Assembly: GCA_947495685.1 (NCBI GenBank)
Contig: CANLZY010000012.1
Span: forward strand, 62,001 to 126,000
Length of the DNA stretch: 64,000 nt
Reading direction: 5' to 3'
Source: an uncultured Tropicimonas sp.
GTDB taxonomy: Bacteria; Pseudomonadota; Alphaproteobacteria; Rhodobacterales; Rhodobacteraceae
Below, piece after piece: positions 24,997 through 30,430 of this stretch. How positions within the stretch are numbered: position 1 is the stretch's first letter; every line of letters begins with the position of its first letter. The position numbers and the translations under genes were made by a program. The notes under the pieces are model-generated. The model saw only the letters and a list, made by a program, of their open reading frames with translations. It made no database searches and was not told the DNA's origin.

Positions 24997-25842
24997 TCAG
25001 ACGGCGTCCCGAAACGTCTGTGGAAACTGCGACCAGCTCGGCCGGGTTGTCGGGACCCCGAAAAAGTATCCCTGCAAGCAATCCACACCCATCTGGATCA
25101 ACAGCGCGGCATCCTTTTCACATTCGACCGATTCCGCGACCGTCAGCATGTCGAACTGTTGTGCAATCGATACAAGTGCCTGCGTCAGGACCCGATTGTC
25201 AGGTTGCTTGTGGATGTCGCGAACAAACTCGCCGGCGATCTTGATGATGTCGAAGTCGAAATCCCGGAGATATCGGAACGCTGTGAACCCGGCGCCGAAA
25301 TCATCGAGCGCGAAACTGGCACCGCGTTCCTGCATCTCTTCCATGAAGCTCATCGTCGTTTCTGGCATGACGATGGCGGAGGATTCCGTGATCTCGATGA
25401 TCAATCTTTCCGCGATGCTCGCATCCGCGCGGAGCCCGTTTTTCATGGTGTTGTTCCAGCGGGAATACCCGATGGACCGCGCAGACATGTTGATCGCCAA
25501 TCGCAACTGTGGAGCCCTTGCGAGCGCCTTGAGCCCCATTTCGAGCGCCAGGCAGTCAATGATTCGTCCGATTTCGTTTGTTTCGCAGGCCTCGATGAAC
25601 TCGCTAGCCGGAATGATTCGGCCGGTGTCGTCGATCACCCGAATGAGCCCCTCGAAGAAGGCGATTGTACCGGGCGCATGTGCGGATACGACCGGCTGAA
25701 AGGCAAGCAGTACATCCTTGCGTTCAAGCGAGCGGCGCACCATCGACAGGATATCGCAGTCGCGCACTTCCAACGCCGCTGCAAGCGGATTGGCTGCGCC
25801 GACAAGGCTGATGGCGCTACGTTTGTTTTTTCCAGGCAGCAT
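24997..25842 (-). CDS. EAL-domain protein (probable c-di-GMP phosphodiesterase)
   Basis: A 281-residue stand-alone EAL domain with no GGDEF, PAS or membrane segment. The signature motif is EGL (FFEGLIRV, E64) instead of EAL. The metal- and substrate-binding residues appear intact: N118 (NMSARS), E150/E153 (EITESS), D180-D181 (LDDFGAGF), K201 (IKI) and E237/E240 (VAESVE), ending with LQGYFFG. So hydrolysis of c-di-GMP to pGpG is plausible. ATG 25842 has GGAG 6 bases upstream. An upstream in-frame TTG at 25920 would overlap the region before tag. It is divergent from tag. Confidence 0.85.
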   Translation of the reverse strand: MLPGKNKRSAISLVGAANPLAAALEVRDCDILSMVRRSLERKDVLLAFQPVVSAHAPGTIAFFEGLIRVIDDTGRIIPASEFIEACETNEIGRIIDCLALEMGLKALARAPQLRLAINMSARSIGYSRWNNTMKNGLRADASIAERLIIEITESSAIVMPETTMSFMEEMQERGASFALDDFGAGFTAFRYLRDFDFDIIKIAGEFVRDIHKQPDNRVLTQALVSIAQQFDMLTVAESVECEKDAALLIQMGVDCLQGYFFGVPTTRPSWSQFPQTFRDAV

Positions 25843-25948
25843 GACAGACTCCGAAATACCGTCTGCCCCATTTGTGTTCCGAGCCCTGAACAACTGGTAA
25901 ATGCTCCAATTCTGCGCCAATTTGAGGAAACTGGAACAGGAGGTGGCA

Positions 25949-26518
25949 TTGGGCGAGCGTTGCGGCTGGGCTGGATCGGACCCGATCTATGTCGCCTATC
26001 ACGATACGGAGTGGGGCGTGCCCGACCGGGATGGGCGCGCCCTGTGGGAGAAACTGGTGCTGGATGGATTTCAGGCCGGGCTGTCGTGGATCACGATTCT
26101 TAAGAAACGGGACAACTTTCGGGAAGCCTTTGACGGGTTCGACCCGGAAAAGATTGCAGCCTGGGGCGCCCCCGAGGTCGATCGGTTGCTCGCCGATCCC
26201 GGGATTGTCCGGCACCGTGGCAAGATCGAAGCGACCATCGGCAACGCCCGGGCTTTTCTGGATATCGAGGAACGCGAGGGATTTTCGGCATTCCTGTGGA
26301 ACAGAATCGATAATTGCCCGATACAGAACACGTGGTTGAACCTTGATGAGGTTCCGACACAAACGTCTCTGTCCCGCCAGGTTTCGAGGGATCTCAAGGC
26401 GGCTGGTTTTCGGTTTTGCGGACCGACAATCGTTTATGCCTTCATGGAGGCGGTCGGGATGGTCAATGACCATCTGGTAACATGCCCGCGTCACTGTGAC
26501 GTTGCGCGCATGCGGTGA
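25949..26518 (+). CDS. tag: DNA-3-methyladenine glycosylase I
   Basis: Excises 3-methyladenine from alkylated DNA. The 189-residue protein aligns end to end with E. coli Tag: ERCGWAGSDPIYVAYHDTEW near the start, GLSWITILKKRDNFREAF, RHRGKIEATIGNARAFLDI, and VNDHLVTCPRHC near the end. The zinc-snap residues are visible (Cys5, the His in YHDTEW, and the C-terminal His/Cys pair). I chose TTG 25949: AGGAGG lies 5 bases before it and the protein then starts like other Tags. ATG 25901 is further upstream. It is divergent from the EAL gene. Confidence 0.93.
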   Translation: MGERCGWAGSDPIYVAYHDTEWGVPDRDGRALWEKLVLDGFQAGLSWITILKKRDNFREAFDGFDPEKIAAWGAPEVDRLLADPGIVRHRGKIEATIGNARAFLDIEEREGFSAFLWNRIDNCPIQNTWLNLDEVPTQTSLSRQVSRDLKAAGFRFCGPTIVYAFMEAVGMVNDHLVTCPRHCDVARMR

Positions 26519-26681: not shown

Positions 26682-26876
26682 ATGAAACGGTCGATCTCGG
26701 ATATCGTCAGGAACTCTGGTCTTGCTGGAATGTTGCTCAAGACTGGAGACACAGAGTGGATCGGTATCTGGTTGCCGTTGCGGGTCAGACCGCAACAGCA
26801 GGTGCCCCGCAAGTCAACCCTTGGCGATGCACTGGCCCGGGCGGCCGCCGCCAACGCCCGTGTCGGGCGCCGCTGA
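26682..26876 (+). CDS. Small conserved-looking protein, unknown
   Basis: A 64-residue frame (MKRSISDIVRNSGLAGMLLK, later GIWLPLRVRPQQQVPRK and ALARAAAANARVGRR). The ATG is preceded by CGAGGG 8 bases away and by an unusually AT-rich stretch (26595-26650) that could hold the promoter. The protein is basic with no signal peptide or membrane segment. Function unknown; moderate confidence that it is translated. Bases 26519-26681 and 26877-27071 hold no other gene that I can support. Confidence 0.5.
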   Translation: MKRSISDIVRNSGLAGMLLKTGDTEWIGIWLPLRVRPQQQVPRKSTLGDALARAAAANARVGRR

Positions 26877-27071: not shown

Positions 27072-27497
27072 TCACATGGCGTCGGCAAGCCCCAGGTGCG
27101 TGGCAACGTCAGTGTCGGAAAGGCCGAGGAAGTCCAACGCGTCCGGCAGGTCGCGGAAGACTTCGACTTTCAATGCGGTGATATCGCTCATCAACGACTC
27201 GAACATCCGTGCCATCCCGTAGGTCGTATCGCTGGGCGCGAAATGGGCCCACAAGATTGGCCCGGGCAGATCGGTGTACCGGGATTCCAGCCTGTCCCGC
27301 AGCGCCATGAAAATGGTTGCATCGATATCGCTTCCGGTCACTGACGACGCATCCGAGAGCTTTGGCATATCATAGCGATGATCGGGGTTTGCGGTCACGT
27401 CTGCAACCAATTGGCGTTGATCGTTCAACGTGACGTGGCCACTGTAACGCAGGAAAACCAGGTTGAACTCCGGGAGAATGAGGTGGTTTTGCGGCAT
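27072..27497 (-). CDS. SpoIIAA/STAS-like small protein (paralogue 1)
   Basis: A 141-residue protein paralogous to the one at 27755-28177. Shared features are an N-terminal LVFLRYSGHVTLNDQ segment, a DP/DH-rich loop before LSDAS, the motif HFAPSDTTYGMARMFESLMSD, and the ending VFRDLPDALDFLGL. The pattern of a short beta strand, a loop with conserved Asp, a strand followed by an APSD-xx-YGMAR helix, and FRDLxxALxxLGL resembles SpoIIAA/STAS-like small domains found in many proteobacteria. Function is unknown. AAGGGATAAGGG directly before the ATG serves as a ribosome site and overlaps the stop of the preceding gene, so translation looks coupled. Confidence 0.75.
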   Translation of the reverse strand: MPQNHLILPEFNLVFLRYSGHVTLNDQRQLVADVTANPDHRYDMPKLSDASSVTGSDIDATIFMALRDRLESRYTDLPGPILWAHFAPSDTTYGMARMFESLMSDITALKVEVFRDLPDALDFLGLSDTDVATHLGLADAM

Positions 27498-27500
27498 CCC

Positions 27501-27749
27501 TTATCCCTTTTCCGGTGTGGTCACGGGCGCGGGCGGAACCGGAATTTCGGCCAGTGTTGTTTTGTTGTATTCTGGAACTGCGAACGCCACGCCGACCTTG
27601 GAGTGGCGTGCGGAAACCGTTCGACCGGTGTCCGGCACTCGGAACGCGGCATCGCCGGTTGCGAACATGGCTACGTCGTCCGAAGGTCGGCTTCCGTGCC
27701 GGGCCGGAGCGATCATGAAGTTCACAAGCATGCCGGGTTTCGTCTCCAC
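27501..27749 (-). CDS. Small unknown protein between the two SpoIIAA-like paralogues
   Basis: An 82-residue frame from GTG 27749 (or ATG 27731). It contains MLVNFMIAPARHGSRPSDDV, VPDTGRTVSARHSKVGVAFA and a proline-rich end (IPVPPAPVTTPEKG). It fits tightly between its neighbours: 5 bases after the upstream stop and 3 bases before the next ATG, on the same strand. I recognise no domain, and there is no good Shine-Dalgarno. It could be real or a fortuitous frame; the tight spacing is the main support. Confidence 0.45.
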   Translation of the reverse strand: METKPGMLVNFMIAPARHGSRPSDDVAMFATGDAAFRVPDTGRTVSARHSKVGVAFAVPEYNKTTLAEIPVPPAPVTTPEKG

Positions 27750-27754
27750 ACGGG

Positions 27755-28177
27755 TCAGGAAGCCGCTTTGAGTTGAAAGGAAGGATGCGCGTTCAGTCCG
27801 AGGTGCCCAAGGGCCTCGGGCAGAGTCCGGAACAAGCCAAGATCGAGCATCTGGGCGTCAGACGTCAGCGCCTCGTACATCCTGGCCATCCCATACGCCA
27901 GGTCGCTTGGAGCATAGTGCGCCACCCGTACCCGATTGGGCGCAGCGGCGTAGATCTCTCGAAACTGCCGCGACAGCATCAGCATGCCCGCAAAGCCGAA
28001 GTTGACCTCGGTGATATCGGACATATCGGAGAATGACTTCAGGCCGGGGCGATACCGCGGGTCATCGCGAACCCGTTCGTGAACCTCGCCGATATCCGAT
28101 ACCCCCACGATTCCGCCGTAACGGATCAAGAGCAAACCGTGGTCTGCGTGTATTTCATAGGAAGACGGCATCGGCAC
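27755..28177 (-). CDS. SpoIIAA/STAS-like small protein (paralogue 2)
   Basis: A 140-residue protein with the same plan as the one at 27072-27497: GLLLIRYGGIVGVSDIGEVH, DDPRYRPGLKSFSDMSDITE, RVAHYAPSDLAYGMARMYEALTSD, and LFRTLPEALGHLGL. The shared motif H-Y/F-A-P-S-D-x-x-Y-G-M-A-R-M identifies them as paralogues. The domain type is inferred from the pattern (SpoIIAA/STAS-like), and no partner kinase or anti-sigma factor is adjacent. It is the first gene of the three-gene run. Bases 28178-28447 upstream contain no gene and probably the promoter. Confidence 0.75.
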   Translation of the reverse strand: MPMPSSYEIHADHGLLLIRYGGIVGVSDIGEVHERVRDDPRYRPGLKSFSDMSDITEVNFGFAGMLMLSRQFREIYAAAPNRVRVAHYAPSDLAYGMARMYEALTSDAQMLDLGLFRTLPEALGHLGLNAHPSFQLKAAS

Positions 28178-28447: not shown

Positions 28448-29005
28448 TCAGCTCTCGGCGGCAAGCGCCTCGAGGATAGCGATCGCGCTGTCGCTGTCCC
28501 ACTCTGCGTCGCCCATCAGCCGACCGACTTCACGGCCCTCAGGGTCCAGAATTACCGTGATCGGCAGGCCCATCACGCCCAGTTCGCGGGCCAGCTTCTG
28601 CTTGGGATCGCGAAATTCCGGCAGGTTGGTTACCTCGATTTCGGCAAAGAATTTCGATATTCCGGTGACGGAGTTGCGCCCCGTCGCGATCGTCACGACC
28701 TCGACCGGCTTGCCGTCGAAATGGGTTTGCAGGTTGGCAAGGGTGGGCATCTCCTTTCGGCATGGAGCGCACCACGTGGCCCAGAAATTGACCACCACCC
28801 AGGTGCCGCGGTGATCCGACAGCCGATGTTCGCCCTCGCCAGCATCGACAAACGCGATGTCGGGGATCTCCTTGGGCGTCTCATGAAACGACAGCTTCTT
28901 CATGTCGCCGTCCCGCAAGGCGGCGATGGCCGTCATGTCGGCGGCAACCGGATTTGCCAAGAGCGCAAGGCCCGTATAGACCAACGCGGCCAACAATTGC
29001 TTCAT
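28448..29005 (-). CDS. TlpA-like periplasmic thiol-disulphide oxidoreductase
   Basis: Thioredoxin-fold protein of 185 residues with a signal peptide (about 1-21, ending VAADM) and the redox motif [14 protein letters not shown] (C79 and C82). It has the cis-proline region [20 protein letters not shown]. It should act in the periplasm, for example keeping cytochrome c or oxidase copper-site cysteines reduced, as TlpA and ResA do. The ATG at 29005 has GGAGG 7 bases upstream. It is divergent from argH with only 24 bases between starts. The thioredoxin-argH arrangement is familiar from related genera. Confidence 0.92.
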
Positions 29006-29012
29006 ATTCCTA

Positions 29013-29021
29013 CCTCCGAGG
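29013..29021. promoter_or_regulatory. Facing, self-complementary Shine-Dalgarno sequences of tlpA-like gene and argH
   Basis: The 24 bases between the two divergent start codons (29006-29029) contain CCTCCGAGG. CCTCC is the minus-strand SD (GGAGG, 7 bases before 29005) and GAGG is the plus-strand SD (8 bases before 29030). The two directly abut. There is no room for promoters here, so each gene must be transcribed from within the other. Confidence 0.7.
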
Positions 29022-29029
29022 TCCCATTC

Positions 29030-30430
29030 ATGTCCGACGCCTCCAACCCTGCCGCCAACAAGATGTGGGGCGGTCGCTTCTCTTCCGGAGTCGACTCGAT
29101 CATGGAGGCGATCAACGCCTCGATCGGGTTCGACCGCCGGCTTGCCCCGCAGGATATCGAAGGCTCCCGCGCCCATGCGGCCATGCTGGCGGCCCAAGGC
29201 ATCATCACGGATAACGATGCCGAGGCGATCCGGGAAGGGCTCCTCACGGTGTTGTCAGAAATCGAGGGCGGAAGCTTCGAGTTCTCGACAGCGCTGGAGG
29301 ACATCCACATGAACGTGGAGGCGCGCCTGACCCAGTTGATCGGCACCCCGGCCGGCCGCCTGCACACCGCGCGCAGCCGCAACGACCAGGTGGCCGTGGA
29401 CTTCCGCCTTTGGGCGCGCGACCAGTACGATGCAGCCATCTCCGGGTTGCAAGCGCTGCAGGAGGCACTGTTGGCACAGGCCGACGCCGGGGCGGGTTGG
29501 GTGATGCCCGGCTTCACGCATCTTCAGACCGCACAGCCGGTGACCTGGGGCCACCACATGCTGGCGTACGTGGAGATGGCCGGGCGGGACCTGAGCCGCT
29601 TCCGCGACGGGCGGGCGCGCATGAACGAATGTCCGCTTGGCGCGGCAGCGCTGGCCGGAACGTCGTTTCCCATCGATCGCCACGCCACGGCGACAGCGCT
29701 TGGATTTGACCGCCCGATGGCCAATTCGCTGGATGCCGTCAGCGACCGTGATTTTGCGCTGGAATTCCTCGCCTCTGCCAGCATCTGCGCAATGCACCTG
29801 AGCCGGCTGGCCGAAGAACTGGTCATCTGGTCATCGGCGCAGTTCCGGTTTGTGACGCTGTCAGACCGTTTTTCGACCGGCTCCTCGATCATGCCGCAGA
29901 AAAAGAACCCCGATGCCGCCGAGTTGATCCGGGCCAAGATCGGCCGGATCGTCGGGGCCAACGTCGCGCTCCTGACGGTGATGAAGGGGCTGCCTCTGGC
30001 CTATTCCAAGGACATGCAGGAAGACAAGGAACAGGTCTTCGACGCCGCCGACACGCTGATTCTGGCGCTGGCGGCCATGACCGGCATGATCGCGGACATG
30101 ACGGCGAACCGCGAACAGCTGGAGGCCGCTGCCGCCAGTGGGTTCTCGACCGCGACCGACCTGGCGGACTGGCTGGTGCGGGAACTGGGACTGCCGTTCC
30201 GCGACGCGCACCACGTCACCGGCAGCCTCGTCGCGATGGCCGAGGCGCAGGGCTGCGACCTGCCCGACCTGACGCTGGAGCAGATGCAGGGCGTTCATGC
30301 CGGAATCACCGCAGGCGTTTTTGAAGTGCTCGGGGTTTACAACTCGGTCGCGAGCCGCACCTCCTACGGTGGAACGGCACCGGAGCGCGTTCGCGAGCAG
30401 GTGGCTCTTTGGGGGGACCGGATCGGATGA
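29030..30430 (+). CDS. argH: Argininosuccinate lyase
   Basis: Last step of arginine synthesis, splitting argininosuccinate into arginine and fumarate. The 466-residue protein begins [20 protein letters not shown], the usual N-terminus. The fumarase/aspartase-superfamily signature [15 protein letters not shown] (mobile loop with the catalytic serine, about residue 284) and [16 protein letters not shown] are present. GAGG lies 8 bases before the ATG. Its stop overlaps the next ATG (ATGA), starting an argH-lipoprotein-lipoprotein run towards lysA. Confidence 0.97.

Follow-up and report, generated by a model that had tools for sequence, protein, structure and literature searches.

A pair of paralogues with a predicted SpoIIAA-like fold, one resident and one extra, in a Tropicimonas genome

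Two neighbouring genes of the window, which is the whole 64,000-nucleotide stretch of marine bacterial DNA analysed here, encode the paralogous proteins p1 and p2. These proteins are single-domain members of an unnamed family with a predicted SpoIIAA-like fold, which is probably a distant relative of Pfam PF11964, and we are highly confident of this identity, taken as the fold, the family and the absence of a module. Comparison with related genomes revealed that p1 is the same-place counterpart of a single gene present there, and that p2 is an extra copy found at that place only here, so that the apparent module consists of one resident gene and an extra copy. Both are most likely small binding proteins of the STAS/CRAL-TRIO type, and we tentatively propose a putative mechanism in which they bind a nonpolar ligand. 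The best explanation as a whole, which joins the family identity, this binding-domain mechanism and the reading of p1 as the resident gene and p2 as an older paralogue, is one that we hold with moderate confidence. For this widespread but nameless family, the analysis supplies a fold prediction and the closest relative of solved structure, and it cautions against a prompt anti-anti-sigma reading. We regard the family as a branch, still without a name, of a fold group that is already known.

The locus and its place in the genus

The three frames that had been described as a unit in an earlier note on this DNA are present on the minus strand (Table 1) with the narrow gaps reported there, 3 bases between p1 and the 82-residue frame and 5 bases between that frame and p2. 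The EAL-domain protein, put at about 1.2 kb in the same note, is encoded 1.15 kb from p1, with the methyladenine glycosylase gene of the opposite strand in between.

Table 1. Features of the locus, in window coordinates
Feature	Coordinates	Strand	Description
EAL-domain gene	24997-25920	-	PF00563; syntenic, not tied to the family gene
3-methyladenine DNA glycosylase (Tag) gene	25901-26518	+	PF03352
64-aa frame	26682-26876	+	between the glycosylase gene and p1; codon score borderline (17/1000 shuffles as high); no match in Pfam/NCBIfam searches
p1	27072-27497	-	141 aa, ATG start; predicted SpoIIAA-like protein, same-place counterpart of the genus' single family gene
82-aa open frame	27501-27749	-	GTG start; between p2 and p1; putative coding frame
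p2	27755-28177	-	140 aa from GTG, 138 aa from ATG at 28171; paralogue between p1 and the TlpA-like gene
TlpA-like thioredoxin-fold gene	28448-29005	-	conserved upstream neighbour; Pfam run used the longer frame 28448-29197

Nine genomes of the genus, our own (G000) and G001 to G008, were compared over fetched stretches around the TlpA-like gene. This gene was found in all nine, and a family gene follows it in six (G000 to G005). A single copy stands there in five of the eight other genomes, and two copies stand there only in G000. No family gene follows the TlpA-like gene in G006, G007 and G008; G008 carries family members elsewhere in its genome. Neither a second copy nor the 82-residue frame was found at the same place in any of the other eight genomes (0/8 for each). 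The neighbourhood check suggested in the earlier note thus bore out one family gene and failed for the second copy and the small frame, and the three-gene signalling or sensing module that the note had put forward did not hold up.

Next in order come the Tag and EAL genes in five genomes (G001, G002, G005, G006 and G007), whether or not a family gene is present; the stretches fetched for G003, G004 and G008 contain neither of them. Because G006 and G007 keep the TlpA-Tag-EAL arrangement without a family gene, and the stretches of G003 and G004 hold a family gene without the EAL gene, the nearness of the EAL gene reflects synteny, that is, inherited order. For the same reasons, a SiaC-like partnership with the EAL protein in c-di-GMP control was rejected. 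In G006, a phytochelatin-synthase-like gene (L101:2113-2838; PF05023, E 4e-63) stands after TlpA where other genomes have the family gene, indicating that the spot varies.

From the tree and topology tests, p2 is probably not a fresh copy of p1 but a paralogue of greater age, or one that came in from elsewhere. One tree unites p1 with L006 and with its same-place counterparts in G001, G002, G004 and G005 (94/94, just under the program's star), to the exclusion of p2 and of L007, the gene at that place in G003; another tree, built on two fewer rows, resolved none of these placements. The trees leave out L085, a short piece, and alignment A5 leaves out L146, whose coordinates were wrong. In the AU test, p1 and p2 as one clade stood at the edge of rejection (p 0.0513), and p1, p2 and the four others together gave p 0.118. 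Furthermore, the spacer between p1 and p2 does not clearly resemble the DNA that precedes p2 or that follows p1. A recent tandem duplication is therefore not supported. Second copies also adjoin family genes in L078 (Tropicibacter alexandrii) and L213 (G036), which makes 2 of the 24 wide-flank family loci, the window aside; the two copies of L213 group locally with each other (100/99), and those of L078 may do so too (p 0.175).

Fold, family and spread of the paralogues

The paralogy of p1 and p2, as judged by pairwise alignment, is far above chance (35% identity, 44/126 residues, ungapped, E 6e-25). Both motifs by which the pair had been recognized in the earlier note were found in each protein, the first as HFAPSDTTYGMARM in one and HYAPSDLAYGMARM in the other, and the second, at the end, as FRDLPDALDFLGL and FRTLPEALGHLGL. 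Codon scores are coding-like for p1 (z 5.6) and p2 (z 5.1) against 1000 dinucleotide shuffles each. By these sequence measures, p1 and p2 are real, related genes.

To model p1 with AlphaFold2, we used alignment A1, which comprises 22 family members (22 of the 23 search matches, L015 being left out). The model reached a pLDDT of 95.2 and a pTM of 0.88, and its elements run E-E-H-E-H-E-H-E-H plus a short final helix, which is the strand-helix order given for the SpoIIAA-like fold in PMC2954212. The top solved match in Foldseek was 2q3l (E 9.3e-5). A second structural comparison also put 2q3l first (Z 10.0 over 112 residues, 3.2 A), followed by 2ook (Z 8.8), the anti-sigma factor antagonist 4qtp and SpoIIAA 1thn (Z 8.0 each), the Sec14-like 7wvt (Z 6.8) and SiaC 7e6g (Z 6.4). 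Ctp proteases likewise reach Z 7 to 8 against the p1 model, so only the top rows of this comparison stand out. The SpoIIAA/STAS-like fold proposed in the earlier note is thus right as far as prediction goes, for p1 by its modelled structure, with 2q3l and 2ook as best matches ahead of SpoIIAA, and for p2 by homology to p1.

Pfam and NCBIfam searches with p1 and p2 gave no match with an E value of 1 or below, and PHROGs yielded no match at E 0.01 for any of the 22 family members. When all 22 were searched against NCBIfam, two single weak matches appeared (best E 0.031). PF11964 is matched by 3/22 members at E up to 0.5 (best 5.7e-5), and p1 and p2 remain without a match to it at E 1. Aligned by hhalign to 16 PF11964 members, the family reached a probability of 82%, which is short of certain, with E 1e-5 over 103 columns. 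PF01740 (STAS) is matched by none of the 22 members at E 0.5, and hhalign against 12 STAS (PF01740) members gave 3.7% over 62 columns. However, the control alignment of PF11964 members to the same 12-member STAS set gave only 0.9%, so kinship with STAS may exist despite the missed profile match.

The motif G-[MLIFV]-[ASCM]-[RH]-[MLIVR] occurs in 22/22 family rows versus 1/16 PF11964 rows, and W-x-D in 8/16 PF11964 rows versus 1/22 family rows. As W-x-D is nearly absent from the family, features of 2q3l may not carry over. We take it that the family is to be placed beside PF11964, and not filed as a member of it. By their titles, none of the papers found on SpoIIAA-like/DUF3478 proteins deals with the p1/p2 family.

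With p1 as query, matches were found in 16 of 60 genomes, our own included, and the result was the same with p2. A pattern scan of named genomes returned 12 loci from 69 pattern matches. Seven of these loci, including the four of the relatives G001, G002, G004 and G005, belong to named Rhodobacteraceae-group bacteria. The other five, which extend the family to MAGs from other phyla, come from assemblies with the labels Myxococcales, Chromatiales, Calditrichota, Acidobacteriota and Eisenbacteria, the Eisenbacteria locus resting on a 42-residue piece. No viral or plasmid carriage was found for close relatives.

Proposed binding role, possible partners and the frame between the paralogues

The domain shared by p1 and p2 would be a small cytosolic binding domain, probably dimeric, in which alpha2 and alpha3 beside the sheet would form the binding face, with the conserved G-M-A-R-M in alpha3. 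Two observations point to this face. The most conserved stretch of the family, A-P-S-D-x-x-F/Y-G-M-A-R-M (G in 22/22 members, R in 21/22), runs into alpha3 of the p1 model. In 2q3l and 2ook, according to PMC2954212, a nonpolar cavity lies behind alpha2 and alpha3 and becomes accessible when these helices open; the two proteins are likened to CRAL-TRIO carriers, and the opening is proposed to admit a nonpolar ligand when the protein is at the membrane. In our proposal, p1 would be the resident protein of the place, and p2, an older paralogue that either was retained here while other genomes lost it or arrived from elsewhere, may pair with p1. Two adjoining PF11964 domains in one frame were found in the own genome (G000:C84:2593-3279; L115, L116) and in seven relatives, the two-domain SpoIIAA-like frames of the latter being those of G001, G004, G006, G007, G013, G014 and G032. 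If the ligand-carrier reading is true, the Sec14/CRAL-TRIO carriers would gain a counterpart in bacteria, one that is testable with two small proteins. We give little credence to the far-reaching version, in which an unnamed, phylum-crossing SpoIIAA-like family would dispense with the SpoIIAA phosphoserine and its members would work in pairs, as homodimers or heterodimers, to carry or sense a small nonpolar ligand at the membrane. In that version, heterodimers would arise from tandem copies, and the 82-residue product would be a third component that this lineage has made for itself.

Alternatively, p1 and p2 could be STAS-type docking proteins with two specificities, comparable to the RsbS/RsbR scaffolds, MlaB or SiaC, whose partner is coded elsewhere. 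We regard this as rather unlikely. The fold is the same as that of SpoIIAA, RsbS and SiaC, the motif is kept in every one of the 22 members, and signalling is favoured by one locus (L205:7983-10972, G020) at which a 648-aa PAS-HisKA-HATPase-receiver hybrid histidine kinase lies about 0.5 kb after a family gene on the same strand. However, in a scan that covered some neighbours of some family loci, such a kinase was found at this one locus and no partner gene recurred, and the nearness of the EAL gene is explained by synteny. The genome does encode a partner-switch set, on contig C34 (G000:C34:11607-12941; L105, L113, L149), with a receiver-SpoIIE protein (402 aa), a DSSG-type STAS protein (123 aa; PF01740, E 1.4e-18) and an HATPase_c_2 protein (146 aa) in a row. 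Because this set has a DSSG-type STAS of its own, partner switching has another STAS protein to rely on. The p1/p2 family also lacks a profile match to PF01740.

Conserved partner genes of another kind, the aldehyde dehydrogenase/GCS2 type, were considered and rejected. An aldehyde dehydrogenase gene lies near the family gene in 7 of the 24 wide-flank loci (L201, L202, L204, L207, L209, L079 and L080); among these seven, six have a GCS2-type carboxylate-amine ligase, three a group-1 glycosyltransferase and two a YkuD gene. LysR and acyl-CoA dehydrogenase genes are found around L079 and L080, and an enoyl-CoA hydratase gene around L080, a gene set that we take to resemble a valine-degradation (mms) cluster. 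The window copies do not share that place. The matching stretches in four genus genomes (L217-L220, 17 kb each) contain no family member, and none of 20 GCS2 loci of the genus has one within about 1.5 kb. With the window copies outside this setting and the genus stretches empty, we read it as a second home of the family and not as proof of a pathway.

A three-gene signalling module with the 82-residue protein as its third part is improbable. The tight packing of the three frames speaks for it, as does a ribosome-site-like AAAAGGGA before p1 that, by eye, overlaps the end of the 82-residue frame; furthermore, the codon score of this frame exceeds those of 1000/1000 shuffles (z 3.0) and of 106/108 shadow ORFs. 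Yet the set was found in none of the eight other genus genomes, and the score per codon is 0.010 for the 82-residue frame, below the 0.117 of p1 and the 0.085 of p2; 31 window genes, selected because they score at least 0.12, average 0.192. The frame also scores close to some non-coding frames, with -0.021 for an antisense frame of the spacer and -0.008 for a frame in the DNA that follows p1, which indicates that the codon measure is not sharp at the spacer.

Nor is the openness of the frame remarkable, since a same-strand ORF of at least 80 codons was found in 292 of 2000 shuffled spacers and in 711 of 3000 stretches of 257 bases drawn at random from the window, most of which are coding. Two antisense frames are also open across it. 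We found no convincing homologue of the 82-residue frame in the 8 genus genomes, in 393 other genomes of the bacterial family (best E 0.0019) or in a further 59 relatives (best E 3.3e-4), and none of 10 inspected loci with weak matches has a gene of the p1/p2 family alongside. The frame has no Pfam or NCBIfam match, and no clear ribosome site was seen by eye before its GTG. Structure prediction of the small protein, which the earlier note had also suggested, returned no confident model (pLDDT 44.9 from one sequence). From its sequence, we lean towards a young gene of the lineage or a chance frame.

The phosphoserine site and comparison with known systems

We infer that the domain is not a phosphorylated anti-anti-sigma switch of the SpoIIAA type. 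A weak profile alignment (E 0.75) places the SpoIIAA phosphoserine at p1 column 58; the 1tid chain is an S58A mutant. At columns 57 and 58, the site as placed by this weak alignment, 0/22 members have Ser or Thr. At columns 60 and 61, where hhalign would set the phosphoserine, 4/22 members have one at each, and p2 has none in residues 55 to 62. Ser or Thr is present in 15/22 members, p1 and p2 included, at column 54, which is 3-4 residues before the aligned site and lies within strand beta3 of the p1 model (46-56), not at the start of alpha2. Because the alignment to SpoIIAA is weak, doubt remains over this column.

A profile search of the genome gave matches above the cut-off on C13 and C34 for HATPase_c_2 and on C7 and C34 for SpoIIE. 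The contig of the window, C12, has 0 matches to either, in agreement with the earlier observation that no partner-switch gene is nearby. A STAS match stands directly alongside the second HATPase_c_2 match, on C13 (G000:C13:103359-104230; L104). That p1 and p2 are true phosphorylated anti-anti-sigma factors of the SpoIIAA/RsbV type, served by kinase-like and SpoIIE-type proteins coded elsewhere, is very improbable: the predicted fold of p1, the HATPase_c_2 and SpoIIE proteins encoded in the genome and the Thr or Ser of column 54, usable if the alignment is off, would suit it, but the lack of Ser/Thr at columns 57 and 58 and in the corresponding part of p2, the position of column 54 inside beta3, the failure of all 22 members to match PF01740 and the empty result on C12 argue against it.

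Compared with known systems, the STAS or anti-anti-sigma factors (PF01740; SpoIIAA, RsbV) share with p1 the SpoIIAA-like fold and a similar size. The p1/p2 family differs from them in having no profile match and, by a weak alignment, no Ser/Thr in the aligned phosphoserine column, and p1 and p2 differ further in that no kinase or phosphatase match is found on the window's contig. SiaC, the activator of the diguanylate cyclase SiaD, has a fold like that of the p1 model (Z 6.4), and an EAL gene lies near p1, but this second likeness is weakened because the EAL nearness is synteny. The CRAL-TRIO/Sec14 lipid carriers have a core arrangement like that of the p1 model, at Z 6.8 and less, whereas p1 and p2 are much smaller. 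The PF11964 SpoIIAA-like proteins (DUF3478; 2q3l and 2ook, from Shewanella) differ in that neither p1 nor p2 matches their profile and in that the G-M-A-R-M-type motif is carried by 22/22 rows here versus 1/16 there; they nonetheless provide the best structural match to p1, the same strand/helix order and the 103-column hhalign alignment.
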